Shown here in pieces: positions 4,198 through 30,821 of a stretch of 56,655 nt of DNA. The stretch is from an uncultured bacterium. GTDB taxonomy: Bacteria > Verrucomicrobiota > Verrucomicrobiia > Verrucomicrobiales > Akkermansiaceae. The position numbers were made by a program, and so were the translations under genes. Within the stretch, counting starts at the first letter, position 1. Every line of letters begins with the position of its first letter. Below the pieces are notes generated by a model. It was not told where the DNA came from. It was given only the letters and a program-made list of their open reading frames with translations, and did not search any database. The DNA is taken from contig CAMEZO010000004.1 in the NCBI GenBank assembly GCA_945947905.1, positions 1-56,655 on the forward strand, read 5' to 3'.

Positions 4198-5523
4198 CTA
4201 CTTGCCCAAGCAGAAGGTCGAGAACACGCGGTCCAGAATGTCCTCCGTATCCACTCGGCCGGTGATGCTGCCGAGGGCATCCAGCGCCTCGCGCAGGTCG
4301 ATGTCGATGAGGTCCGGGCTCTCCCCCGCGAACAATCCGGCCCGGGCACGGCGCAGGGCCTCGGCGGCCTGCTGCAGGGCAAAGCGGTGGCGCGTGTTGA
4401 CGGCAGCCACGGTATCGGCCTCCCCCAGGCTGCGCAGGAAGAGACTGCGGATGGCCTGCCCGAGGTCATCCCGCCCCCTACCCTGCGCGCAGGAAATGCG
4501 GATGCCGGGCTTACCCGCCCAGGCGGGGTGCTCCTCCAGGTCTGCCTTGTTGAGCACGAGCAGGCAATGCGCCCCGGGCGGCGCGGACGGCAGGGGCACC
4601 GGCGGCTGAGACACATCCGCTACCTCCAGCACCAAATCGGCGGCGGCCAAGGCGCGGCGGCTGCGCTCCATGCCGCATTGCTCCAGGCTGTCCTCGCTGT
4701 TGTGCAGCCCCGCCGTGTCGATGAGACGCAGGCAGAGCCCGCCCAGGCTGAGGGAGGCCTCGATGGTGTCCCGCGTGGTGCCGGCGCGGTCGCTGACGAT
4801 GGCGCGGTCATAGCCCAGCAGCATGTTCAGCAGGCTCGATTTGCCCACATTCGGAGCACCGACGATGACCGTGCGCACTCCCTCGCGGAGCAGACGCCCG
4901 CCCTCCGCCGTGGCCAGCAGGGCGCTCACCTGCTCCTCCGCGGCCTGCAGTTGCCCGCCCAGGCTCTCCACCGTGGCGGGGGGGATGTCCTCCTCCGGAA
5001 AGTCGATGTAGGCCGTCACATGGGCTGCGACGTCAATCAAGCCGTCCAGCGCGGCCTGCACCCTGTCGGCGATGGCCCCCTGCAGCTGGTGCTGAGCCGC
5101 GCGCAGGGCGAGGTCGCTGCCGGCGTGGATGATGTCCATGATGGCCTCCGCTTGGGTGAGGTCGAGCTTCCCGTTCTCGAAGGCGCGGCGGGAGAACTCG
5201 CCGGGCTCCGCCGGCACGGCCCCGCAGGCCAGCAGGCGCTCCAGCACACGCTCCGTGACGAGAATGCCACCGTGGCAGGAGATCTCGACCACGTCCTCGC
5301 CCGTAAAGCTGGCAGGGGCAGCAAAGTAGGTGGCCACCACCTCGTCCAGCACGCTGCCGTCCTCCGCGCGCACACGGGCAAAGGTCGCACGGCGGGGCTG
5401 CAAGGGCTTTCCGCCCAAGGCGGCGGACGCCACGTCATGGGCCTGCGGGCCGCTGAGGCGCAGGATGGCTAAGGCCCCTACTCCGTCCGGTGTCGCGCGC
5501 GCTGCAATGGTTGTTCCGTTCAT
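4198..5523 (-). CDS. mnmE: tRNA modification GTPase MnmE
   Basis: A 441-residue protein that, with MnmG, installs the (carboxymethyl)aminomethyl group at C5 of wobble uridine in tRNA. The N-terminal folate-binding domain begins TIAARATPDGVGALAILRLSG. The inserted G domain has P-loop GAPNVGKS near residue 220, DTAGL and NKAD. The C-terminus ends CLGK, matching the C-x-G-K motif with its catalytic cysteine. The start at 5523 gives the normal N-terminus and lies 7 nt after a promoter -10, so the upstream in-frame ATG at 5565 is rejected. mnmE often lies close to the replication origin, which agrees with the origin-like DNA at 7.5-11.8 kb. Confidence 0.97.
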   Translation of the reverse strand: MNGTTIAARATPDGVGALAILRLSGPQAHDVASAALGGKPLQPRRATFARVRAEDGSVLDEVVATYFAAPASFTGEDVVEISCHGGILVTERVLERLLACGAVPAEPGEFSRRAFENGKLDLTQAEAIMDIIHAGSDLALRAAQHQLQGAIADRVQAALDGLIDVAAHVTAYIDFPEEDIPPATVESLGGQLQAAEEQVSALLATAEGGRLLREGVRTVIVGAPNVGKSSLLNMLLGYDRAIVSDRAGTTRDTIEASLSLGGLCLRLIDTAGLHNSEDSLEQCGMERSRRALAAADLVLEVADVSQPPVPLPSAPPGAHCLLVLNKADLEEHPAWAGKPGIRISCAQGRGRDDLGQAIRSLFLRSLGEADTVAAVNTRHRFALQQAAEALRRARAGLFAGESPDLIDIDLREALDALGSITGRVDTEDILDRVFSTFCLGK

Positions 5524-5530
5524 TTCCCCT

Positions 5531-5559
5531 ATTGTTGCATATTCTACCCCATGTGAAAA
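5531..5559 (-). promoter_or_regulatory. mnmE promoter
   Basis: On the minus strand TTTTCA (5559-5554), 17-bp spacer, AACAAT (5536-5531), then 7 nt to the ATG at 5523. The -35 is weak. Confidence 0.5.
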
Positions 5560-5633
5560 GCGCAAATTTTGCTTTCAAAGACAAATTTTTTTACTCTTCC
5601 TGAATTTTTTTTACCTAAACACGCATTTTAGGC

Positions 5634-6508: not shown

Positions 6509-7270
6509 ATGCGCACGATACGGACACTCCTCCCGGCCTTGGCCGCCGCCTGTCTCCTTTCCCACTGCACCAACCTGCAATCCGAAACCGGCTTGTATGA
6601 CGTGCAGCTCCGACGCTCCGCCAAGGTGGATGCCTCCGGCTTTTGGCTGGAGGGCGACCCTACCCTCTACCGCAATGTTAAGAAGGGAACGGTCTACATT
6701 GCTCCGCTGGATGTGAGCCGAATCCAAGCCGACGAGCCCGAGGCCGCTGCCCTGTTGCAGGAGAAGATGGGAGAGTACATGCAGGAGAGTATCACGAATG
6801 CCTTGGCTACGATTAACAAGGAGATGAACTGCCGGTGGGCGATCACGCCCAAACCGCAGGGGGCTACCCTGTGCATCAAGCTCGCGGTCGTTTCCTTCAC
6901 CCCTCAGCATGCCGCGGCGCGTTGGCTGGGCGCAATCGGCAGTTTCTTCAGTCCCGTGCCGGGGACGGGTAACCTTGTGGAGCATCTCACGACCGGCAGG
7001 ATTGTGGTGGAAGCTACCGCGCGTGACGGCAAGACCCATAAGCTGCTGATGGCTTTCAAGGACCACAATCACCGCAATCCCCGATTCTACGAAAAGAACG
7101 CCTACACGTCTGAGGGGGTGGCCCTCACGAATCTCAAGGCCTGGGCCAACGGGATGGGGCGGCTGCTCATTGCAGGCAGTACGGCCCTGCGTAAGGGTAC
7201 CTCAGTGGAGAAAATGCTGGAGGAGGAGAGCTTCCTCCATTCCGTCGAGCGACGGGCTTTCGAGGATTAA
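6509..7270 (+). CDS. DUF3313-like lipoprotein
   Basis: A 253-residue protein with a signal sequence and lipobox LSHC near residue 19. The body (TVYIAPLDVSRI early, a central helix of the type MGEYMQESITNALA, then IVVEATARDGKT) resembles outer-membrane lipoproteins annotated as DUF3313 or similar, whose function is not established. It is monocistronic: its own promoter lies directly upstream and a 373-nt gap follows. GTG at 6506 would also be possible, but ATG at 6509 is more likely. Confidence 0.65.
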   Translation: MRTIRTLLPALAAACLLSHCTNLQSETGLYDVQLRRSAKVDASGFWLEGDPTLYRNVKKGTVYIAPLDVSRIQADEPEAAALLQEKMGEYMQESITNALATINKEMNCRWAITPKPQGATLCIKLAVVSFTPQHAAARWLGAIGSFFSPVPGTGNLVEHLTTGRIVVEATARDGKTHKLLMAFKDHNHRNPRFYEKNAYTSEGVALTNLKAWANGMGRLLIAGSTALRKGTSVEKMLEEESFLHSVERRAFED

Positions 7271-7567: not shown

Positions 7568-7583
7568 TGTTCCACATGGAACA
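7568..7583. promoter_or_regulatory. parS-like site 1
   Basis: TGTTCCACATGGAACA, a perfect 16-bp palindrome; it differs from the classical parS pattern TGTTnCACGTGnAACA only in the central CA-TG. Confidence 0.7.
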
Positions 7584-9419: not shown

Positions 9420-9435
9420 TGTTCCACATGGAACA
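9420..9435. promoter_or_regulatory. parS-like site 2, over a start codon
   Basis: TGTTCCACATGGAACA, identical to site 1. It overlaps the ATG candidates at 9419 and 9428 of the next gene. Confidence 0.7.
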
Positions 9436-10813: not shown

Positions 10814-10829
10814 TGTTCCACGTGGAACA
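10814..10829. promoter_or_regulatory. parS site 3 (full palindromic consensus)
   Basis: TGTTCCACGTGGAACA, a perfect 16-bp palindrome fitting the ParB-binding consensus. It lies directly after the stop codon of the TPR gene. Confidence 0.8.
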
Positions 10830-10878: not shown

Positions 10879-10907
10879 TTGACATACCGATTTTTTTTTG
10901 CTAGCTT
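10879..10907 (+). promoter_or_regulatory. promoter of the 10915 lipoprotein gene
   Basis: TTGACA (10879-10884), 17-bp spacer with a T9 run, TAGCTT (10902-10907); ATG at 10915, 7 nt after the -10. Confidence 0.65.
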
Positions 10908-10914
10908 CCGTTTC

Positions 10915-11532
10915 ATGAAGAAAAGCCTTTTCTTGTTATCTCTGGGGGTTCTGTTGATGCCTTCCTGTGTCTACGTGCAGACGCATAAGAACGTGGAGCA
11001 GATCGGCTCGACCACACCGATGGGCAAGCTGGAGCGTGACCGCCTCTACCGGGTCGGGGATGATTGGTGTCTGCGGGCACACGAGGTCAACACGAAGCTG
11101 GACTATCCGGTCATACGCGATGAAGCCTTCACGGGTAACACGCGACCGCCCATCGTCAGCGAGGCCGGCCCTCTGTCGGATGAGCCGATCTATATCCCTG
11201 TTTCCGAGGGTACGGCGGCGGTGATGCAGCGGGAGGATGGCTATGTGCACATCGGCGATTTGGTCAGTGAAATGGAGCGTTTCAAGCGGCACTATACGGC
11301 GGAGCAGGCGAGGGGTAAAGTGCGTCCGGCAGGAGCTATCCGTGCCGAGTCAGCGGGGGAGAACGGGGCGGTCTTCGTGAATCTGGGCAAGCCTTCTTCT
11401 CCTTCCGCAGTAGGCTCTGTTTTGGGGACGGCGGATCTCGTTCTCGTTGACACACCGGCGACGCTGGCGGCCAATGCTCTCCTGCCGGTCATCGCGCCTT
11501 TCTATTTCTTTGTTGATTTTCTAAGTCATTGA
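10915..11532 (+). CDS. lipoprotein of unknown function (205 aa)
   Basis: Signal sequence and lipobox LMPSC near residue 18. The mature part has no family I recognise; it is polar (KLERDRLYRVGDDWCLRAHEVN) with a hydrophobic C-terminal helix (NALLPVIAPFYFFVDFL), so it may be anchored at both ends. The start at 10915 sits 7 nt after the -10 hexamer; the in-frame start at 10879 lies within the promoter. Its stop codon is inside the second copy of the 25-bp palindrome, so termination or binding there may affect replication-region DNA. Confidence 0.7.
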   Translation: MKKSLFLLSLGVLLMPSCVYVQTHKNVEQIGSTTPMGKLERDRLYRVGDDWCLRAHEVNTKLDYPVIRDEAFTGNTRPPIVSEAGPLSDEPIYIPVSEGTAAVMQREDGYVHIGDLVSEMERFKRHYTAEQARGKVRPAGAIRAESAGENGAVFVNLGKPSSPSAVGSVLGTADLVLVDTPATLAANALLPVIAPFYFFVDFLSH

Positions 11533-11546
11533 TACTCAACGGTTAA
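11522..11546. repeat. palindrome copy 2 (imperfect)
   Basis: TAAGTCATTGA, TAC, TCAACGGTTAA: the same layout as copy 1 with one left-arm and several right-arm differences. It overlaps the stop codon of the preceding gene. Confidence 0.65.
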
Positions 11547-11670
11547 GCCATGTTATCAACATCATGCTGTCAATAATAGAGTGAGTAAACGGTGAATAAC
11601 TTGTGAATGATCGACTTATGCACATTCCGTCTTCCTTGTCCTCAATCTTGTTCACGGGATATTCCGGGGT

Positions 11671-11695
11671 TAAGTCGTTGAGAATCAAGCACTTA
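11671..11695. repeat. palindrome copy 3
   Basis: TAAGTCGTTGA, GAA, TCAAGCACTTA: the left arm is identical to copy 1 and the right arm differs at two bases. It sits between the two clusters of DnaA-box-like sequences. Confidence 0.8.
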
Positions 11696-11753
11696 GGTCA
11701 CTTATTCACTTATTCACAAGGCAGATGATGATGAAGTTTAAATTTAAATACCA

Positions 11754-11759
11754 TAGTAT
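11754..11759 (+). promoter_or_regulatory. possible -10 of ribD
   Basis: TAGTAT, 5 nt before the ATG at 11765. No good -35 at the expected distance. Confidence 0.35.
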
Positions 11760-11764
11760 TCTTC

Positions 11765-12793
11765 ATGAAAGCGACACCTGAACACGCTGCATGGATGTGC
11801 GAGGCCTTGGCCGAGGGCTACAAGGGGTTCGGCACCACAAGCCCGAATCCTCCGGTCGGGGCCGTCCTCGTGCGGGAGGGGCGCATCATCGGCAGGGGCT
11901 ACCACCACGAGGCCGGCAAGCCGCATGCCGAGCGCATGGCCTTGGCCGATGCGCGGGCCGGGGGAGAGTCACCGCTCGGGGCAGACCTTTACGTCACGCT
12001 CGAGCCTTGCTCCACGGTAGGTCGCACCCCGGCCTGCACGGACGCCATCATCGAGGCCGGCATCCGCCGCGTGTTCTACGCCTGCGTGGACCCCAATGCC
12101 CGCCACAGAGGCCGCGCAGACGCCCTTCTGCGGGCCGCGGGCATTGAGGTGCATGCCGGGCTTGAGGCGACCGCCTGCGGGGTTCTGCTGCGTCCCTGGG
12201 CCTATGCCATGGAACATGGGCGTCCCTGGGTGGTCGCCAAGCTGGCTACAACCCTGGACGGCAGCATGACCCGCCGCGGTACAGCTTGGCTGAGCAATGA
12301 GGAGAGTCTGCGGTACGCGCACGACCTCCGCCTGCGCAGTGATGCCATCTTGGTCGGAGGGAACACCGTGCGCACGGACAACCCGCGCCTGACGATCCGC
12401 AACCCACACCTTCCCATCCCGCCGGAAAAGAAACAGCCTCTGCGCGTCGTGCTGACAGGGCAGGGGATACCTGCCGACTGCCGGCTGCTGACGGATGAGC
12501 ACCGGGAGCGCACCTTGGTGTTCTCCGGGGCTGTCCGGCTCGGTGAGCTGCTTGAGCGGTTGTACCGGGAGCACGGGGTGGTGCAGCTCATGCTGGAGTG
12601 CGGCCCGAGGCTTCTGCGGCATTTCTTGGAGCAGGGGATGGTGCAGGAGTGGGTGCAGAACATCACGCCCTATGTGAGCGGCGGCAGCGACACCGTGGCG
12701 GGGGGAGACTTCCTGCCGAGGGAGTGGCGGCTGGTCGACAAGCAGGTGGTGGACTGCGGGAGTGACATCATTTTGCGGGGATTGCTGCAATGA
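11765..12793 (+). CDS. ribD: bifunctional riboflavin biosynthesis deaminase/reductase RibD
   Basis: A 342-residue enzyme acting at steps 2 and 3 of riboflavin synthesis: deamination of the diaminopyrimidinone, then NADPH reduction of the ribose. The N-terminal deaminase domain (about 1-145) has the zinc motif HAE near residue 57 (KPHAERMALADA) and PCSTVGRTPACTDAI. The reductase domain follows from WVVAKLATTLDGSM, with ILVGGNTVRTDNPRLT as the NADPH/substrate segment. Length is slightly short of 360-370 but complete. No other rib gene is near and no FMN riboswitch is visible. It overlaps the next gene by 4 nt, so they are translationally coupled. Confidence 0.95.
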   Translation: MKATPEHAAWMCEALAEGYKGFGTTSPNPPVGAVLVREGRIIGRGYHHEAGKPHAERMALADARAGGESPLGADLYVTLEPCSTVGRTPACTDAIIEAGIRRVFYACVDPNARHRGRADALLRAAGIEVHAGLEATACGVLLRPWAYAMEHGRPWVVAKLATTLDGSMTRRGTAWLSNEESLRYAHDLRLRSDAILVGGNTVRTDNPRLTIRNPHLPIPPEKKQPLRVVLTGQGIPADCRLLTDEHRERTLVFSGAVRLGELLERLYREHGVVQLMLECGPRLLRHFLEQGMVQEWVQNITPYVSGGSDTVAGGDFLPREWRLVDKQVVDCGSDIILRGLLQ

Positions 12794-13605: not shown

Positions 13606-13634
13606 TTGCATTTCTCCCCGGTATGTGGTATAAG
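13606..13634 (+). promoter_or_regulatory. promoter of the HpaII-type system, with CCGG in its spacer
   Basis: TTGCAT (13606-13611), 17-bp spacer, TATAAG (13629-13634). CCGG, the expected target of the encoded enzymes, occurs once in the spacer at 13618-13621. It overlaps the last codon region of the phosphoesterase gene. Confidence 0.7.
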
Positions 13635-13656
13635 AATGCAGCATTCTTCTCGCACC

Positions 13657-14808
13657 ATGAAACCGAACGACATTGTATGCGGGCTTCCCGGGGAGCTCGT
13701 CAGAAAACGTGGAACCCGGGATTCCGCTCCTGTTTCCCCGGTCGGCGGGATGGTGTGTGATTTGTTTTCGCGGGTGCATAGGGTTTCCGAGGCGGGTAAA
13801 ATCCGTATGATTGATCTCTTTGCCGGGATCGGCGGAATCCGTATGGGGTTTGACCGGGCTTTCGGTGACAGCGCCGAGACTGTTTTTGTTTCGGAGTGGG
13901 ATGCAGCGGCCCAAAAGACTTATTCGGCAAATTTTCCGGATTCACTGACCATCAACGGAGATATTACCAAGATCTCGGAAGAAGATATTCCGGGATTTGA
14001 TATTTGTTTGGCCGGTTTCCCTTGTCAGGCATTCAGTCTTGCCGGGCAGAGAAGGGGGTTTGACGATGATTACAAGGGGATGTCCCGGGGAACACTGTTC
14101 TTTGATGTGGCACGCATTTGCGCGCGGCATAAACCCAAAGTCATTTTCTGTGAAAACGTCAAGGGTCTTACCATTCATGACAAGGGAAAAACTTTTGCCG
14201 TCATTCGGGGTACCCTCGAGCAGATAGGATATAAGGTGTTTGCAAAGGTTTTGAATTCCAAGGACTTCGGCGTGCCTCAGAATCGAGAGCGCATCTACAT
14301 CGTTGCGTTCAGAAAGGACATTGCACCCGATCGATTTGATTTTCCCTCACCCGTACCGGGAAAAGTCAGCCTGCGTGATATTTTGGAGGAGAAGCCGGTT
14401 CCGTCGAAGTATTACCTCAGTACTCAATATCTCGCGACCCTGATTCGCCATAAGGAACGGCATGCCGCAAAGGGTAACGGTTTCGGATACGAAATCCGTG
14501 AACTGGACGGAATTGCCGGTGCCATTGTTTGCGGGGGAATGGGGCGTGAGCGGAATCTTATCATTGATCCCCGACAAACGGATTTGACTCCGAGTACACA
14601 TATCAAGGGAGAGGTCAACCGGGAAGGTATCCGCAAGATGACACCGAGAGAATGGGCGCGTTTGCAGGGATTCCCGGATTCCTATAAGCTGGTCCTTTCC
14701 GATGTCCATTTGTACAAGCAGTTCGGAAACAGTGTAACGGTTCCTGTCATTCGTGCTATTGCGGAAAAGATCAAGGCAGTCTTGGATGATGTATCGGGTA
14801 ATATATGA
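13657..14808 (+). CDS. M.HpaII-like DNA (cytosine-5) methyltransferase
   Basis: About 383 residues. All C5-methyltransferase motifs are present in order: motif I IDLFAGIGG, motif IV FPCQAFSLAG with the catalytic cysteine, motif VI FCENVKGL, motif VIII QNRERIYIV, motif IX MTPREWARLQGFPDSY and motif X KQFGNSVTVP. The recognition region (KYYLSTQYLATLIRHKERH, then GNGFGYEI) is very close to M.HpaII as I remember it, so the target is probably CCGG with the inner or outer C methylated to protect against the next gene product. ATG at 13657 lies just after the predicted transcription start; the start at 13606 is inside the promoter. Codon use is more AT-rich than in the flanking genes, a sign of transfer. 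Confidence 0.93.
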   Translation: MKPNDIVCGLPGELVRKRGTRDSAPVSPVGGMVCDLFSRVHRVSEAGKIRMIDLFAGIGGIRMGFDRAFGDSAETVFVSEWDAAAQKTYSANFPDSLTINGDITKISEEDIPGFDICLAGFPCQAFSLAGQRRGFDDDYKGMSRGTLFFDVARICARHKPKVIFCENVKGLTIHDKGKTFAVIRGTLEQIGYKVFAKVLNSKDFGVPQNRERIYIVAFRKDIAPDRFDFPSPVPGKVSLRDILEEKPVPSKYYLSTQYLATLIRHKERHAAKGNGFGYEIRELDGIAGAIVCGGMGRERNLIIDPRQTDLTPSTHIKGEVNREGIRKMTPREWARLQGFPDSYKLVLSDVHLYKQFGNSVTVPVIRAIAEKIKAVLDDVSGNI

Positions 14809-15965
14809 AAGAACAATCTGATTCCAAACCGATTACGGGAAACAGGGGCGAATGGAGCGAGCTGTACGCTTTTTTCCGTTTGATGGGTGATCATCGTTTG
14901 TTTCCGTGTGATGCAGATCTGAATGAGAAACACGATTATGCGCCGGATATCGTGGAGATACATCGGGGGGCGGATGAGAAGCTTGTTTATCGGTATACCG
15001 GGGATGGTAGGTGGGAGATTTATACTTCCGGAGAAAAGAAGGGTACGGTTTCGTCAGTGGAGAGTGCTTCCGAGGCTGACCGGCTTTTGGCCTGTATTCA
15101 GTCCGGAGATTGCGTAGGCAGTTTTTCTGTTGAGGGGGCATTGAAATTTCTGGAACGACTGGCGGATGATAAAATTAAAGCAAAATCCGGTGATAAACAG
15201 GATATTGTATTGAAGGTTCAGGACCTTCGTGCCGGCGGTGTCCCCGTGAAGTGCGGATTCAGCATCAAATCCTATCTCGGATCCGCTCCGACTCTTCAGA
15301 ATGCGAGTGCGGATTGTACGAATATTCTGTATACAGTCAGAGGTATTTCCGTTGAGAAAGCAAGACTCATCAATGATGAGTGTGACAAATTTCCGAGAAA
15401 ACGCATCAAGAAATTGATGTCTCTTTTGAAGGAGCACGGGGCCTCGATTGAATTCGAAAAAATCTGCCATCGTAATTTCGAGAGTAATTTGATTGTTGTC
15501 GCTGACAGTATGCCGAAATTACTCGGCGAACTGCTTCTTGTGCATTATCTCAGCGGGGAAAGCAGTGTCAGGGAGGTGACGGAGATGACGGCAGCTCGAA
15601 ACCCTCTTCAATACCCGCAGGGTAAATCTCTTTATGAGCGGCGCGTCAAGAAACTGTTGGAGGCATTTGCCTTGGGAATGACACCGGCGGGAGATTGGAG
15701 GGGTGAGGAGAATGCCAATGGCGGATTCATTGTTGTACGTTGGGACGGCAAACTCTTGACGTATCATCTGTTCGACAGAACGGAGCTGGATGAGTATCTT
15801 TACCGCTATACAAAATTTGATCATCCTTCTTCCGGTAAGCATAGGTACGGTCGCCTCTTGGTCAATGAAGCGGACGGAAGCATCAGCCTCAAACTTGCAT
15901 TGCAGATAAGATTCATTACGCCGCGCAAAGATGGACAACCACACAGCCGAACAAAGACATCGTAA
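14805..15965 (+). CDS. HpaII-family type II restriction endonuclease
   Basis: A 386-residue protein overlapping the methyltransferase gene by 4 nt (ATGA). The N-terminus GNRGEWSELYAFFRLMG matches the HpaII endonuclease family start, which cleaves CCGG. SGDKQDIVLKVQDLRAG near residue 135 contains the D and K expected of a nuclease core; I infer rather than prove catalysis. Together with the neighbours it forms a complete modification, restriction and repair cassette. The low GC matches the methyltransferase gene and contrasts with ribD upstream. Confidence 0.88.
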   Translation: MKEQSDSKPITGNRGEWSELYAFFRLMGDHRLFPCDADLNEKHDYAPDIVEIHRGADEKLVYRYTGDGRWEIYTSGEKKGTVSSVESASEADRLLACIQSGDCVGSFSVEGALKFLERLADDKIKAKSGDKQDIVLKVQDLRAGGVPVKCGFSIKSYLGSAPTLQNASADCTNILYTVRGISVEKARLINDECDKFPRKRIKKLMSLLKEHGASIEFEKICHRNFESNLIVVADSMPKLLGELLLVHYLSGESSVREVTEMTAARNPLQYPQGKSLYERRVKKLLEAFALGMTPAGDWRGEENANGGFIVVRWDGKLLTYHLFDRTELDEYLYRYTKFDHPSSGKHRYGRLLVNEADGSISLKLALQIRFITPRKDGQPHSRTKTS

Positions 15966-19487: not shown

Positions 19488-20177
19488 TCATTCCGTGAGC
19501 AGTGCAGTGATAGCAGCGGGGTCCGTGATGCGGCGCAGGGGGCGGTAATCGCAGGCGCGCCCTGCGCGGCCGGAGTTGCCGGGCAGGCCGAAGGAAAGCG
19601 GGCGGTCCCGGAGCAGTAGGTCGGCGGCCTCCGTGTTATCCGGCTGCCACCACAGCTCGCGGATGCGGCGGGGGCCGTGCAGCAGCAGGCGGTGTGCCTC
19701 GGCGGCGGGCATCACCGGCTTACGCACCGGAGGCTCGGCGGGGATGCAGCATTTGCGCCCCAGCCAGATGCCGCGCCGCGGGTTGCGCAGGACCTCGGCG
19801 GCGTGGCACAGGAAATCCCGGTCCGTCGACTCGAGCAGCACGCAGTAGCGCTCATCCTGCCGGTAGAAACGCCGCGTGACCACCGTGGGCAGGGGCGAAC
19901 CGTTCACGGCGCGGGTGCCGAGGACAGTGTGAAAATCGCAGAGCGGGGCGCGTGACGGGGCGTCGCCCAGGGCCACACTGTGCATGCGCGCCGCGCGGAA
20001 CCCGGCGATGATACGTGCCTCCTCGTCGCTCCCCTTGTCGGCCCCGGCGGCGGCGCATACCATGCCGCAGACCGCGCTCAGTGACGGCGCGACCCCGGCC
20101 CCGCGTTCCTGAAACAGGCTGTCCGTTCCCCAGGCCTGCAGCGGGGCTGCGAAGTGCAGCAACAGGGCGTGCATCAT
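19488..20177 (-). CDS. cas5e: type I-E CRISPR protein Cas5e (CasD)
   Basis: A 229-residue RAMP protein. The N-terminus HALLLHFAAPLQAWGTDSLFQERG matches the Cas5e pattern (lllrLeaPlqsWG), and PSLSAVCGMVCAA is the following conserved helix. In Cascade, Cas5e holds the 5' handle of the crRNA and contacts Cas8e. The C-terminal part includes RRFYRQDERYCVLLES. It overlaps Cas7e by 4 nt (ATGA) and is the last gene of the six-gene operon. Length is normal (224 in E. coli). No cas1 or cas2 follows; the next DNA is the 290-bp element. Confidence 0.93.
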   Translation of the reverse strand: MMHALLLHFAAPLQAWGTDSLFQERGAGVAPSLSAVCGMVCAAAGADKGSDEEARIIAGFRAARMHSVALGDAPSRAPLCDFHTVLGTRAVNGSPLPTVVTRRFYRQDERYCVLLESTDRDFLCHAAEVLRNPRRGIWLGRKCCIPAEPPVRKPVMPAAEAHRLLLHGPRRIRELWWQPDNTEAADLLLRDRPLSFGLPGNSGRAGRACDYRPLRRITDPAAITALLTE

Positions 20178-21220
20178 GGGGCGAGCGGGGCAATCAGGGA
20201 CTCCGTGAATTCATCGGCGCACTTATCAGGTAACTCGACTGTTACCTCAGCCTTCAGGTTCCAGGTATGCTGCATCTGCCGGAAGAAGCTCCGCAGGCGT
20301 TCGCGGCTCGGTGCGGCATAGCCTCCCTCCGGCAGCACGGGGTCCTCGAAGGCGGCGGCCAGCTGCAGGGGGCAGCCGCTCCGTCGGTGCAGGCCCAGGG
20401 CGTAGTCGGGCAGGCAGGAGGCGCACATCGACCCGCGCCGGGCCGACGGTGCCGCGCGCAGGGCGGAGTCAACGAAGGCGCGGAGCAGCAGGCGCAGGGT
20501 CTCCGCATCCGGCTGTCCCAGGTTTTCGCGCAGCAGGTCCACGTTCAGCCCCACATAGCGATAGTAGCAGGCGGAGTGGAACTCAAGCATGCCGCCGCCC
20601 GCGCCCGCGGATAACAAGTCATCCGCCGTCGTGAAGTAATCTAACTCCGGCTCGCAGAGGTGGGTGGATATGGCATGGGTATACATCGCGGCGGCCTCGG
20701 TGGAGAGCTCGGGGTCGGAGGTAACCATGCGCCCGAAGAGCGCGATATCAGCCGCATCGCTCATCAAGTGCCCGCGCGGCAGGGCCTCCGCAGCAGCCTT
20801 GGCCAGCTCGGCCGGAGTGGCCTTTGGTTTCTCCTCGCGCCGGGCCAGGGCGGTCTGTACCATCAGCTGCGCCTCGGCGGGGGAGAAGTAGACGGGAGCG
20901 GCGGCGGCGGGTTCGCTTTTGCGGGCATCCACCTTGCACCAAATGCCCGCCAGGGCCGCGGCGAGGGCCTCTGCGCCGGCGGCTCCGCGGGCTTGCAGCA
21001 GGCCCAGCAGGTAGCCGGGCAGCAGGCGGGTGCGTATGCCGCAGCCGTGCTGCGGGGCCAGCTCGCGGAAGAGGCGGCGCTGGCTGCGTTTCATGCACTG
21101 GGAGGAGATGCGGGCGCGGCGCACGCCGCCGTAGTAGGCGCTTTTCGCCGCCCCTAGGTCGTCGCGGTTCGGACAGCAGACGGGGTAACTTTGCAACAGG
21201 TGCAGTTCGAGGAGTTCCAT
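20174..21220 (-). CDS. cas7e: type I-E CRISPR protein Cas7e (CasC/Cse4), Cascade backbone
   Basis: A 348-residue protein. The N-terminus ELHLLQSYPVCCPNRDD, then GAAKSAYYGGVRRARISSQC and MKRSQRR, is the classical Cas7e signature (hxLQsxPxxxxNRDdxGxxKxaxxGGxxRxRiSSQ). Six copies normally coat the crRNA spacer. The C-terminal half contains MCASCLPDYALGLHRR. The start at 21220 (ATG) is chosen over the open frame upstream, which overlaps Cas6e and encodes a non-homologous arginine/proline-rich extension. It lies 2 nt after the cas6e stop and overlaps cas5e by 4 nt. Confidence 0.95.
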   Translation of the reverse strand: MELLELHLLQSYPVCCPNRDDLGAAKSAYYGGVRRARISSQCMKRSQRRLFRELAPQHGCGIRTRLLPGYLLGLLQARGAAGAEALAAALAGIWCKVDARKSEPAAAAPVYFSPAEAQLMVQTALARREEKPKATPAELAKAAAEALPRGHLMSDAADIALFGRMVTSDPELSTEAAAMYTHAISTHLCEPELDYFTTADDLLSAGAGGGMLEFHSACYYRYVGLNVDLLRENLGQPDAETLRLLLRAFVDSALRAAPSARRGSMCASCLPDYALGLHRRSGCPLQLAAAFEDPVLPEGGYAAPSRERLRSFFRQMQHTWNLKAEVTVELPDKCADEFTESLIAPLAP

Positions 21221-21222
21221 TG

Positions 21223-21822
21223 TTATGAAATCGGGGAGAGAGGAAGGAGGAGCATGAGGCCGAAGCCGAAGCTCTTGGCGCTGCCGAACCCGTGCTCCCG
21301 GGCGCGGCGGAAGGTCTCGGGGTCGCGCACGCTTAGGCTGCCGCAGAATTGCACGGAGTGGTGCAGGGCCGGGGCGCAGCCGGGTTTGCAGAAGGGAAGG
21401 GGGGCCTCCGGGACGGCGCGGACATCCTCCCCGGGCAGGAAGCCGCCCTGCTCGCCCTTGCGCCGCAGCCAGCGGAGGAGCTCGTCGTCGCCGGTCAGGG
21501 GCAGGCGGCGTCCGTGGGGCTCGGGGCTGCGTTTGGTGGGGTTGGCGCGCAGGCAGAAGCGGTAGTCGCGGGCCCGGTGAAAGTCGGGGGGTATGGGCGC
21601 GCAGCACAGCCTGTCCTGCGGTAAATCGGCGGGGCACAGCGGCGGCAGCGGGGAGAGCATGCAGAGGCGCGCGCCGCCGGGGGCGTAGTCCGCGCGGTAC
21701 AGAAAGCGCCGTTTCCCCATGCCGGGGAAGAAGCGCCACACCAGGCGGTGCAGGGCATAGGCGTCCCGGGGCAGGAGGCGGGAGGCTTCGGCCTCATGCA
21801 GCATGTATGTTGACAGATACAC
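21223..21822 (-). CDS. cas6e: type I-E CRISPR endoribonuclease Cas6e (CasE/Cse3)
   Basis: A 199-residue crRNA-processing RNase. The start is assigned to GTG at 21822 because it gives the normal N-terminus (VYLSTYMLHEAEA) and has AAAGGAG 7 nt upstream; ATG at 21852 is the alternative. RDAYALHRLVWRFFPG matches the Cas6e helix carrying the catalytic histidine, and the C-terminal FGSAKSFGFGLMLLLPL is the glycine-rich RAMP loop and last strand. It overlaps the Cas8e-Cse2 gene by 29 nt. Its presence between Cse2 and Cas7e differs from the E. coli order, where it follows Cas5e. A processing RNase implies that an array exists somewhere, but none is seen here. Confidence 0.92.
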   Translation of the reverse strand: MYLSTYMLHEAEASRLLPRDAYALHRLVWRFFPGMGKRRFLYRADYAPGGARLCMLSPLPPLCPADLPQDRLCCAPIPPDFHRARDYRFCLRANPTKRSPEPHGRRLPLTGDDELLRWLRRKGEQGGFLPGEDVRAVPEAPLPFCKPGCAPALHHSVQFCGSLSVRDPETFRRAREHGFGSAKSFGFGLMLLLPLSPIS

Positions 21823-23596
21823 GGGGGCACTCCTTTCCGGTGCGGGATGCATCGCAAAGCTCGATGTAGAGCTCGCGGTAGTTGACGGGGATGATGCTGT
21901 GCCGCAGGGCGGTGATGAGCGCGGGCATCTGCGCGGCCAAGCCTGCGGGTCCGGAGGCGGCGAGCTGCCGCAGGCGGGCTGCCGTCTGCGCGGGGTGACT
22001 GCGCCCGGCAAGGGCCAAGCGGCGATAGGTAGCGGAGGGGCCGTAGCCGGGGCGCTCGGTGTGGTAGGGGTGCAGGGCAAAGAGGGCGGCGACCAGCTCG
22101 GCGGCGGAGTCCCCCGCGCCGCAGTCGTGCAGCAGACGCAGCCCGGGCTTGCGGCCCGTGCGGTCGAGCAGGGTGCGCAGGGCCGCGAGCTGTTGCGGGT
22201 CGCGGCGCAGGCGGAGCAGGTGGGCCACCAAGGCGGCGGGATCCGTGGGGTAGGGGGACGTGGCCGGCGTAGCTGCCGGAGAGACGAGTGCCTCGGGTAG
22301 CAGGCGGGCGGCCTGTCGGGCAGCACATCGGGCGCGGGGGCCGGCGTGCGGGCAGACGCACGATAAGGCTCGGTGAGAGCAGAGGGTCAGGGTGTCTTGA
22401 ACTTCTTCCCGGTCGGCGCGGAGGAGGTCGGGCAGGGCGTGTTGCACCTCGCTGCGGAAGCGCAGGGCGGCTTCCCGGCGCAGGGCGGCCGCGCGTCGGG
22501 GCTCGGCGCAGACGTCCTCGGCGTAGCGTTCGGCGGCCTCGGCGGTTCGGGCCTCGAGGGCATCGGCGGCGGTGGTCAGGGTGCGGAGGCTCTCCGCTGC
22601 CGCCTCGGGAGGTACCCCGGCGGGCAGGGGCAGGCGCAGTTCTCGCGTGCCGAGCACCTTGGCGCGGTCTGTCATCAGGCAACCCATCCACAGCGCGGTG
22701 CCGGGGGGAAGCTCCTGCCCGCTCAGGCTCGCAAGGGCAGCGGGGGCGCAGCGCCACAGGGGCAGATGCGGCGCGGTGCCGATGGGCCTGCCGTCGGCCG
22801 TGACCATGCTCGGTTCGGGGGACGGCTCGCTGCCGTAGTCCAAGCCGCGGGCCAGGATGCAGCGGTCGCCCGCCAAACGCACCGCGCGGCAGAGGGGAAC
22901 CAGGCGTCCGCACAGCGTGCCGGTGGCATTCAGCAGGGCGGCGCTGTCCCGGGGGCTTTGCGGTATCTGCTCCCACACGGGTCGGCCGAGGGGCAGGGGG
23001 CTTTGCCGCAGGGTGCGCAGGCTCAGGAGGAGGGTGTCGCGCAGGTTGCGGCCGAGCAGCAGGGCGTGCAGGGCGCTCCCCGCAGCGCAGGGACCGGCGG
23101 GGCAGACATCCGGTGTCTTCCGTGCCGTGGGTTCCCCGGCCCACAGGGCGGTGCCGATGGTGCCGCAGGGGGCAAAGTTCTGCAGGGTAAGCAGGTGCAG
23201 AGCCGCTTGCGCGGGGCTTACCTGCGTCCGCGCGGCGTCGTTCTCGAAGAGGCTGCTCGAGTTGCCCGCCGTCCCCGCCGGGGCCAGCTTGCGCAGCTCC
23301 ACCCGTGCCTCGCCTTCCAGCCCCGGCAGTTGCAGAAAGGCCCCGCCGGCTCCCTCCGCATACAGCTCAAACGCTCCTTCCCACTCCCGCAGATACGCCG
23401 CCGCGCTCTCAATCCCTCCCGCCGCCAGCGTGATACATTGCAGCAGCCGCATGAGCGCAATGCGCTCATGCGGCTGCACGGCCAAATCCCGAATCTCTTC
23501 AGCCTTCGCAAAAATCTCTCCCAAGCCCTGCAACCTCACGTCCCCGCGTGGCCCCATACAGGGTATCCACGCGTCCTTCGCCAAGTTGCAGAGCAT
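21794..23596 (-). CDS. Cas8e-Cse2 fusion: Cascade large and small subunits in one chain
   Basis: A 600-residue protein. Residues 1 to about 455 are Cas8e (CasA/Cse1): the start NLAKDAWIPC fits the NLLxxPWIPV pattern, then LGEIFAKAEEIRDLA, ALMRLLQCITLAAGG, SPAQAALHLLTLQNFAPCG, and the C-terminal helical bundle near 330-440. After a Pro/Ala/Ser linker (about 447-465) comes a Cse2/Cas11 domain of about 140 residues: PTDPAALVAHLLRLR, AELVAALFALHPYHTE (the hallmark AALFALHPxHTE), AARLRQLAAS, IPVNYRELYIELCD. E. coli encodes these as two genes of 502 and 160 residues. It begins 12 nt after the upstream lipoprotein gene. The fusion would force a fixed ratio of the large and small subunits or need internal translation to supply extra Cse2. 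Confidence 0.92.
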   Translation of the reverse strand: MLCNLAKDAWIPCMGPRGDVRLQGLGEIFAKAEEIRDLAVQPHERIALMRLLQCITLAAGGIESAAAYLREWEGAFELYAEGAGGAFLQLPGLEGEARVELRKLAPAGTAGNSSSLFENDAARTQVSPAQAALHLLTLQNFAPCGTIGTALWAGEPTARKTPDVCPAGPCAAGSALHALLLGRNLRDTLLLSLRTLRQSPLPLGRPVWEQIPQSPRDSAALLNATGTLCGRLVPLCRAVRLAGDRCILARGLDYGSEPSPEPSMVTADGRPIGTAPHLPLWRCAPAALASLSGQELPPGTALWMGCLMTDRAKVLGTRELRLPLPAGVPPEAAAESLRTLTTAADALEARTAEAAERYAEDVCAEPRRAAALRREAALRFRSEVQHALPDLLRADREEVQDTLTLCSHRALSCVCPHAGPRARCAARQAARLLPEALVSPAATPATSPYPTDPAALVAHLLRLRRDPQQLAALRTLLDRTGRKPGLRLLHDCGAGDSAAELVAALFALHPYHTERPGYGPSATYRRLALAGRSHPAQTAARLRQLAASGPAGLAAQMPALITALRHSIIPVNYRELYIELCDASRTGKECPRVSVNIHAA

Positions 23597-23608
23597 GGGC
23601 GGTGAATG

Positions 23609-24304
23609 TTACTTGGGATCCACTCTGACGTAGGTGGCGCGCATCTCCATGGCGTTAGCATGTTGTATGGGATTTTGCTCTATCTGAGCATCCCCATCAC
23701 CATTTACGCCGTCATGATCGTGACCGTCTTCACCATCCGGAGTAACCTCCGCACAATCGTAAAAATAGAGGATAATATTTCCTTCTTCGATGTGCTTCTT
23801 TCCTTCGGATGCGTCACCGGAATATGTCAATGTTGATCCCTGTGTCGGGAAAGCCACTCGGACTTCATTACCATAGCCCATGCCGCTGAGCTCTTGTGTA
23901 CCCACTGTATTACTACCTCGAAGGGCTTCTAAACTGTCGGCAGTGAGTGCTTGGTTCAGAACCCTGAAGGTGTGTTGACCGTTGGTAACGGTTTCCTCGA
24001 ATACACAGGGATTCAGAAAGTTTCGGTGGTCCCCGGCTGCATAAACAGTCGCGTATACGGATGCAGATGTGGATTTATTTCCGGCTATGTATGCGTCCTC
24101 GTAGCGGAAGGTCGCAATCAACTGGTTGCCGGAGTAGAAGCGCACGATTCCACCGGTAGGAGATCCAAAGAGGAAATCCGGATTATAATCCGAAACGCTT
24201 TGCGAGGGAGCAGCACTGCTTCCGCCCCCGCCACCACCACCGCATGAGGCAATGGTACCGGTAAGAGCCAAGGAAAGACAGAGCAGGAAAAGATTCGTTT
24301 TCAT
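23609..24304 (-). CDS. glycine-rich lipoprotein 2, cotranscribed with Cascade
   Basis: A 231-residue protein: MKTNLFLLCLSLALTG signal, lipobox IASC near residue 21, then seven glycines and a Ser/Ala/Pro linker typical of a surface lipoprotein tether. The mature part (DYNPDFLFGSPTGGIVRFYSG, YEDAYIAGNKSTSASVYATVYAAGDHRN) looks beta-rich; the acidic histidine/glycine-rich stretch DGEDGHDHDGVNGDGD near residue 200 could bind a divalent metal. I recognise no family. It lies 13 nt after lipoprotein 1 and 12 nt before the Cas8e-Cse2 gene, so it is in the same operon. Base composition is lower in GC than the cas genes, so the operon is composite. Confidence 0.75.
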   Translation of the reverse strand: MKTNLFLLCLSLALTGTIASCGGGGGGGSSAAPSQSVSDYNPDFLFGSPTGGIVRFYSGNQLIATFRYEDAYIAGNKSTSASVYATVYAAGDHRNFLNPCVFEETVTNGQHTFRVLNQALTADSLEALRGSNTVGTQELSGMGYGNEVRVAFPTQGSTLTYSGDASEGKKHIEEGNIILYFYDCAEVTPDGEDGHDHDGVNGDGDAQIEQNPIQHANAMEMRATYVRVDPK

Positions 24305-24317
24305 GGTAGAGCTTTAG

Positions 24318-24959
24318 TTATTGTCTTACAATGACAAATTGACGAGAGTTGTATTCACGATGAATTTCCTCCCCCTGATTATAGGAGTAAATCTGATATC
24401 CGCATTGCATGTAATTGAAGTCGAAGGTAAGTCGGCTGATGGTCAGCAATGTATCACCGGTACTGGTACCACCCATACGACCACCTAATGCTAATAAAAT
24501 CGCGAAAGTGGCATGTGCATCGTCACCTACCCAGTAGCGATTTTCATTTCCTTCTTCCGGAACGGTCGGATTGAAATCATCCTCCCCTCCTATGATTTCG
24601 CTCCCGCCTTGGTCGGTGATATTGAGAAGTCCGCATCGAGTCGACGGATTGTAACGATAGTAGACGAGTACGGGCATAGCCTCTCCGTCATTGATGGATA
24701 CATAGGCATTGATCATCTCGCCGCCTTTGTCAATCTCTCCGGATTCCCAACCTTGGAGTCTATTGTCTCCGCCCGGGGGAGCGTATAACTTTACCTTGGA
24801 ACCACCTCCCATGATGATGAGAGCCTTGCGTCCTGAGAGTAAGTCATAGTTGGTGACGATGCCGTTTTCTGTTTCGTTCCCTCCACCGCCGCCGCAGGCG
24901 CTGAAGGTGAACACAACGGCGACCGCTGCGAGGAAGAGTGAGAGTAATCTTGTCTTCAT
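24318..24959 (-). CDS. glycine-rich lipoprotein 1, first gene of the Cascade operon
   Basis: A 213-residue protein: MKTRLLSLFLAAVAVV signal, lipobox FSAC near residue 21, followed by GGGGG. The mature part is beta-rich by eye (YDLLSGRKALIIMGGGSKVKLYAPPGG, MPVLVYYRYNPSTRCGLLNI, DTLLTISRLTFDFNYMQCGYQIYSY). It shares the leader style and glycine tether with the next gene, and both have a similar length, suggesting a related pair, but the mature sequences are not clearly alike. The ATG at 24959 is preferred over the in-frame start at 25010. The function is unknown. Position at the head of the operon means it is transcribed whenever Cascade is. Confidence 0.72.
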   Translation of the reverse strand: MKTRLLSLFLAAVAVVFTFSACGGGGGNETENGIVTNYDLLSGRKALIIMGGGSKVKLYAPPGGDNRLQGWESGEIDKGGEMINAYVSINDGEAMPVLVYYRYNPSTRCGLLNITDQGGSEIIGGEDDFNPTVPEEGNENRYWVGDDAHATFAILLALGGRMGGTSTGDTLLTISRLTFDFNYMQCGYQIYSYNQGEEIHREYNSRQFVIVRQ

Positions 24960-25213
24960 GATGATGTGAGTGTGGATATGAAAAGGAGGAAGCAGGTACC
25001 GGGTCGGCACTCGCTCTCTACAGGAGGTAGTCTACATCTTTTTGTAAGATGAATGCGTCATCTTTTCACGCAATCCCTTGGCAGTCAAGGCTTTAGACAG
25101 TCCTTCATCTGACCGCAGTTCATTTTTTCGTAGACAAGGGAACAAAAAAATGCCAGAATTCTACACAGAAAACGCACTTTATGCTTGCATCATCTTACAA
25201 AAACCTGAAGACC
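24960..25213. promoter_or_regulatory. divergent control region between the Cascade operon and the recombinase
   Basis: A near-identical motif points outward on each side: CATCTTACAAAAA on the plus strand at 25191-25203 (toward the recombinase) and on the minus strand at 25051-25039 (toward the lipoprotein/cas operon). Each is preceded by a GCAT element. TTACAA may be the -10 in both; no good -35 is found at 17 bp, so activation or another sigma factor is possible. The 13-bp repeat CACTCGCTCTCTA lies at 25008-25020. Confidence 0.5.
25008..25020. repeat. 13-bp repeat flanking the cas operon, copy 2
   Basis: CACTCGCTCTCTA, in the leader of the operon; identical to 19452-19464 beyond the operon end. 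Confidence 0.6.

Positions 25214-26231: not shown

Positions 26232-30821
<4,590 letters not shown>

Follow-up and report, generated by a model that had tools for sequence, protein, structure and literature searches.

The window examined here is the whole 56,655-nucleotide (56.7 kb) stretch of DNA, contig C4 of a 2.19 Mb source genome recovered in 171 contigs. Between a 217-aa open reading frame (10879-11532) and ribD, it contains an intergenic stretch that had been put forward from the letters alone as a candidate replication origin lacking dnaA. The features of this stretch and its immediate surroundings were as follows.

7568-7583, + strand: parS-like site with one mismatch (motif search)
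9420-9435, + strand: parS-like site with one mismatch (motif search)
10814-10829, + strand: exact parS, TGTTCCACGTGGAACA (motif search)
11522-11534, - strand: second IHF/HU-like site, TATCAATGACTTA (motif enrichment; weak)
11533-11764, + strand: candidate oriC, the whole intergenic stretch between the open reading frame and ribD (box cluster, single-copy conservation, skew flip at the homologue)
11553-11561, + strand: candidate DnaA box TTATCAACA (TTATNCACA-like, at most one mismatch)
11568-11576, - strand: candidate DnaA box TTATTGACA (TTATNCACA-like, at most one mismatch)
11591-11599, - strand: candidate DnaA box TTATTCACC (TTATNCACA-like, at most one mismatch)
11602-11610, - strand: candidate DnaA box TCATTCACA (TTATNCACA-like, at most one mismatch)
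11616-11624, + strand: candidate DnaA box TTATGCACA (exact TTATNCACA)
11683-11695, + strand: IHF/HU-like bend site AATCAAGCACTTA (WATCAANNNNTTR; motif enrichment across origins; weak)
11702-11710, + strand: candidate DnaA box TTATTCACT, first of the conserved tandem beside the unwinding region
11710-11718, + strand: candidate DnaA box TTATTCACA (exact), second of the conserved tandem, nearest the unwinding region and in an E. coli R1-like position
11719-11723, + strand: 5-nt spacer AGGCA, nearly constant in length within the genus and free in sequence
11724-11735, + strand: trinucleotide element GATGATGATGAA, 5'-GAN-3' on the box strand, in the place of a DnaA-trio (54 of 54 origins)
11737-11750, + strand: AT-rich run TTTAAATTTAAATA, where duplex unwinding probably starts (all relatives aligned are AT-rich here)
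11765-12793, + strand: ribD (Pfam; by synteny, adjoins the origin in every same-genus genome compared)

We found that the intergenic stretch carries seven DnaA-box-like 9-mers with at most one mismatch to TTATNCACA. The original prediction had counted six, which fell short, while the clustering and the occurrence on both strands stood, as did the two exact TTATnCACA sites at 11616 (TTATGCACA) and 11710 (TTATTCACA), both on the + strand. In dinucleotide shuffles of the 232 bp the mean was 0.37 sites and the maximum three, and none of 1000 shuffles reached seven. Across the whole window 22 such sites were found, seven of them here, making this the densest cluster. The trinucleotide run and the AT-rich stretch expected after the boxes were likewise seen. 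The IHF-like motif WATCAANNNNTTR was encountered in 15 of 54 origins, where shuffles gave 2, and most copies occupy one of two fixed positions. The source genome encodes three HU/IHF-family proteins; as a bending site the motif is suggestive, no more.

The conservation of the element was assessed among relatives. Its core (11698-11763) is 77-92% identical in most same-genus relatives in which ribD matches at only about 65-70%. A model built from the core sequence alone and searched against 50 genomes matched clearly and only once in most of the 49 same-genus genomes, and not at all in G041, which belongs to another family. The exact pattern TTATTCACA-N5-GANGANGANG occurred once in the source genome and in 11 Akkermansia genomes in all; among 386 genomes of the order it had no match in the others, and a reversed control gave 0. 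This exact arrangement is thus not order-wide. The element itself occurs in single copy, and its conservation exceeds that of ribD next to it.

We then considered the trinucleotide run in light of the published DnaA-trio, a 3'-GAT-5' unit on the strand opposite the box with its conserved middle adenine there (PMC8287927, PMC6669920); the B. subtilis trios read 5'-TAG-TAG-AAG-TAA-3' (PMC10316083), and in H. pylori reversal of the trio polarity abolished opening (PMC8235120). In an alignment whose anchor pattern favoured the 5'-GAN-3' register but permitted substitutions, A was found at positions 1, 4 and 7 on the TTATTCACA strand in 54 of 54 origins, with G invariant at positions 6 and 9. The A. 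muciniphila lineage carries GAAGAAGAAGGA in place of GATGATGATGAA. Whether the run is simply an ordinary DnaA-trio array in another frame (3'-TAC-5' on the complementary strand) is a question that concerns the unwinding step only. The window does give three 3'-NAN-5' units on the strand opposite the box, read as TAC, which satisfies the loosest published rule, and 25 of 54 origins, the window included, have at least three. However, the other 29 fail, the A. muciniphila lineage (GAAGAAGAAGG) among them, so that an array of at least three such units, typically GAT, is not a conserved feature here. The NAN units on the box strand are present in all 54 origins, and the invariant base is an A on that strand. 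We therefore regard the ordinary trio as unlikely and prefer an element whose adenine has swapped strands. Akkermansia DnaA would then either read a 5'-WTC-3' unit on the usual strand or hold the other strand.

The surroundings of the element were examined for further markers of an origin. The parS-like sites that had been proposed nearby were recovered as one exact and two one-mismatch copies, 0.7-4 kb upstream of the box cluster, where 0.14 would be expected in the window. A search of the whole source genome found no further parS with at most one mismatch, and one two-mismatch site was noted on another contig. The parS sites cluster at the element. The gene mnmE (4198-5565, minus strand) had also been cited in support; four relatives, searched in the 20 kb stretches that surround their homologous element, did not show it, and it was therefore discounted as a marker, leaving this part of the original prediction weak. 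In the synteny comparison, neither mnmE nor argS was near the origin in the larger-genome species. The conserved neighbour of the origin is ribD. Outside the genus ribD did not serve as an origin marker: no box cluster was found upstream of it in G043 or G048, and in G041 the skew flip lies about 120 kb from the ribD-like match.

Several other genes in the window were noted. An HpaII-type restriction-modification pair (13606-15965; C5 methylase PF00145 and RE_HpaII PF09561) sits in low-GC DNA at a distance of about 2 kb from the origin. It appears recently inserted, since in a near relative (L023) the flanking genes adjoin each other and the pair is missing. Type I-E CRISPR genes were found on the minus strand at 19488-25010 (Cas5, a Cas7-like CT1975 protein and Cse1); one 600-aa open reading frame (21794-23596) matches Cse1 in its N-terminal and Cse2 in its C-terminal part, an apparent Cse1-Cse2 fusion. 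A 1467-aa beta-galactosidase-like GH2 protein with two C-terminal F5/8-type C domain matches is encoded at 26418-30821.

The element is not a dnaA-linked origin with dnaA and dnaN adjoining. In the source genome contig C136 carries dnaA and C88 carries parB, and in three complete relatives (G004, G015 and G088) dnaA lies about 1 Mb from the homologous element, in agreement with the origin having been described as one without dnaA. Within the window the GC skew was weak, its sign agreeing close to the site, and the cumulative minimum fell at 6671, not 11650. A skew minimum elsewhere in the chromosome had been named as the result that would speak against an origin here, and it was looked for in the three complete genomes, all of the usual D433 DnaA type, using profiles sampled as 20 kb stretches at about 20 places per genome, not as full cumulative curves. 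G004 showed the turn from negative to positive skew where its homologous element lies (1.238 Mb of 3.18 Mb), with the two halves of a single stretch on either side of the flip; G015 likewise showed it at the element (0.425 Mb of 3.50 Mb). In G088, which was chosen after the core model had been built and is thus an out-of-sample test, the flip was again at the element (0.9586 Mb of 2.66 Mb; -0.080 to the left and +0.080 to the right within one 20 kb stretch), with one sampled stretch of this genome mostly masked. In all three genomes the skew was mostly negative before the element and mostly positive after it, the opposite change came roughly half a genome away, and no reversal occurred at dnaA. 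The skew minimum thus falls at the homologous element in each. In G278, a relative with altered boxes, the contig-scale skew around the origin was opposite in sign on a draft contig.

In G041 the skew flips at about 497 kb. The region there is AT-rich and duplicated, contains TTATTCACA sites and lies 8-13 kb from parS; no TTATTCACA was found in the 475-495 kb stretch scanned, and the flip lies outside it. It was noted that two similar AT-rich, box-containing blocks lie about 520 bp apart at about 497.1-497.9 kb (L215:2130-2900) and look tandemly duplicated. Next to a box-like site in the same region, the box strand carries GAAGAAGAG-like repeats.

Bipartite origins occur in some bacteria, and replication could start in another nearby segment, such as the parS cluster region, with the box cluster as an accessory. 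The tandemly duplicated box region at the skew flip of G041 can be counted for such an arrangement, but the densest box cluster of the window lies from 11530 onward and the conserved core contains the unwinding-type sequence, and we consider this placement very improbable. We give still less credence to a DnaA-titration or regulatory site (datA- or DARS-like, or one through which DnaA controls ribD), which would place the true origin somewhere else, for instance at dnaA: E. coli does have box clusters away from its origin, and ribD starts only 14 bp past the AT-rich run, but in three complete genomes it is the element, not dnaA, at which the skew reverses, an unwinding-type AT run and a parS cluster are present at the site, and a TTGACA-type promoter-like sequence stands between the core and ribD in many relatives. 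The box cluster, the conservation, the skew flip at the homologues and the parS sites together support the proposed origin, and we conclude that 11533-11764 is very probably the chromosomal replication origin (oriC) of an Akkermansia species.

The approximate origin position in A. muciniphila is already mapped. A Hi-C study of strain YL44 and eleven other strains placed their origins at kilobase scale by parS and GC skew with coverage support, and it too reports a parS cluster and a skew flip (PMC10197239). Its authors state that origins do not systematically coincide with dnaA, and coverage supports the A. muciniphila origin region at the kilobase scale (PMC10197239). The origin sequence, boxes and unwinding element are not described in the passages of that study consulted, compared to the base-level account given here, and we found no base-level description of an Akkermansia or Verrucomicrobia origin in the open-access literature.

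We sought to relate the boxes to the DnaA proteins of the same genomes. In E. coli DnaA the base-contacting residues are 399, 423, 432-435 and 438-439 (PMC5043019, PMC7561715); the open-access literature yielded residue lists only and no per-base contact table. It was found that the boxes co-vary with base-contacting residues 433, 435 and 439. Most species (45 genomes) have D433-G435-H439 (GGRDHGTV..H) and TTATTCACA boxes, with 163 TTRTTCAC compared to 22 TTRTCCAC copies. Three genomes with D-T/S-H (FGRDH(T/S)TV) have TTATCCACA boxes, with 2 and 13 copies respectively. The single S-G-A genome, G097 (GGRSHGTV..A), has TTATTGACA boxes, with six TTRTTGAC and no TTRTTCAC. Four S-A-N genomes (GGRSHATV..N) have TTRCTGACA boxes, with 15 CTGAC-type copies (TTRCTGAC, TAACTGAC and AAACTGAC) compared to 0.28 expected, and neither TTRTTCAC nor TTRTCCAC occurs in their origins. 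One of these, G278, was picked from 386 genomes by a codon search for GGRSHATV; when the core model was then used to locate its origin, the boxes there were those predicted.

On a DnaA tree built without domain IV, the S433 clade was monophyletic with support of 1.0 and G097 was sister to the four S-A-N genomes. Because of this position, the simplest history would be D433S together with a change of box C6 to G, followed by G435A with T4 to C, with A or N arising at residue 439 on the same path. About three evolutionary events underlie the co-variation, which should not be counted as 53 independent ones. G097 (L136, L185) has the appearance of an intermediate in the switch. Epsilonproteobacterial DnaA offers a likeness in the T at box position 5, a change ascribed there to domain IV residues 435 and 438-439; that group strongly conserves the 433-434 dyad, whereas one Akkermansia clade changes 433 and box position 6 (PMC5043019). 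Taken as a whole, a stepwise rewiring of DnaA and its boxes within the genus (loss of the conserved Asp433 alongside the shift from TTATTCACA to TTATTGACA, and further changes at 435 and 439 alongside TTRCTGACA), combined with origin opening through a trinucleotide of strand-swapped adenine, is the account we lean towards, with some reserve.

From these features a possible course of initiation can be outlined. DnaA, encoded about 1 Mb away in the complete relatives, would bind the TTATTCACA-type box cluster on both strands, and HU/IHF-like proteins may bend the DNA at the flanking sites. From the tandem boxes (11702-11718), DnaA would be guided across the 5-nt spacer onto the trinucleotide element, 5'-GATGATGATGAA-3' on the box strand and 5'-TTCATCATCATC-3' on the other, where it would hold one strand. 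It would then open the AT-rich run at 11737-11750, where the helicase could be loaded. ParB on the parS sites 0.7-4 kb upstream would subsequently separate the new origins.

This layout resembles E. coli oriC, which has boxes in both orientations, an unwinding element 3' of box R1 and IHF-type sites. The Akkermansia element differs in having TTATTCACA in place of TTATCCACA, no recognisable 13-mers and a trinucleotide array. The BUS of B. subtilis and others has the same components in the same order, namely tandem DnaA boxes, a short spacer, a trinucleotide repeat and AT-rich DNA (PMC6669920, PMC8287927), and the 5-nt spacer lies within the 16 bp allowed there between box and repeat. In contrast to the BUS, with its 3'-GAT-5' (5'-TAG-3') unit on the opposite strand, the Akkermansia unit is 5'-GAN-3' on the box strand, and its invariant A sits on that strand, opposite to the one with the adenine of canonical trios.

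These results describe at base level the probable origin of Akkermansia, a gut genus that has been studied intensively. Several of its complete records begin at or near dnaA, about 1 Mb from the replication start, and growth-rate estimates from read depth rely on the correct origin. The ordered, matching changes in DnaA and its boxes represent a natural experiment in which an essential initiator shifts its DNA specificity with its function kept, and the matching series makes base-by-base recognition by DnaA directly testable. If the rewiring is true, D-G-H, S-G-A and S-A-N forms of domain IV would prefer TTATTCACA, TTATTGACA and TTACTGACA, respectively. The strand-swapped trinucleotide would test whether the unwinding system proposed to be broadly conserved applies in Akkermansia.
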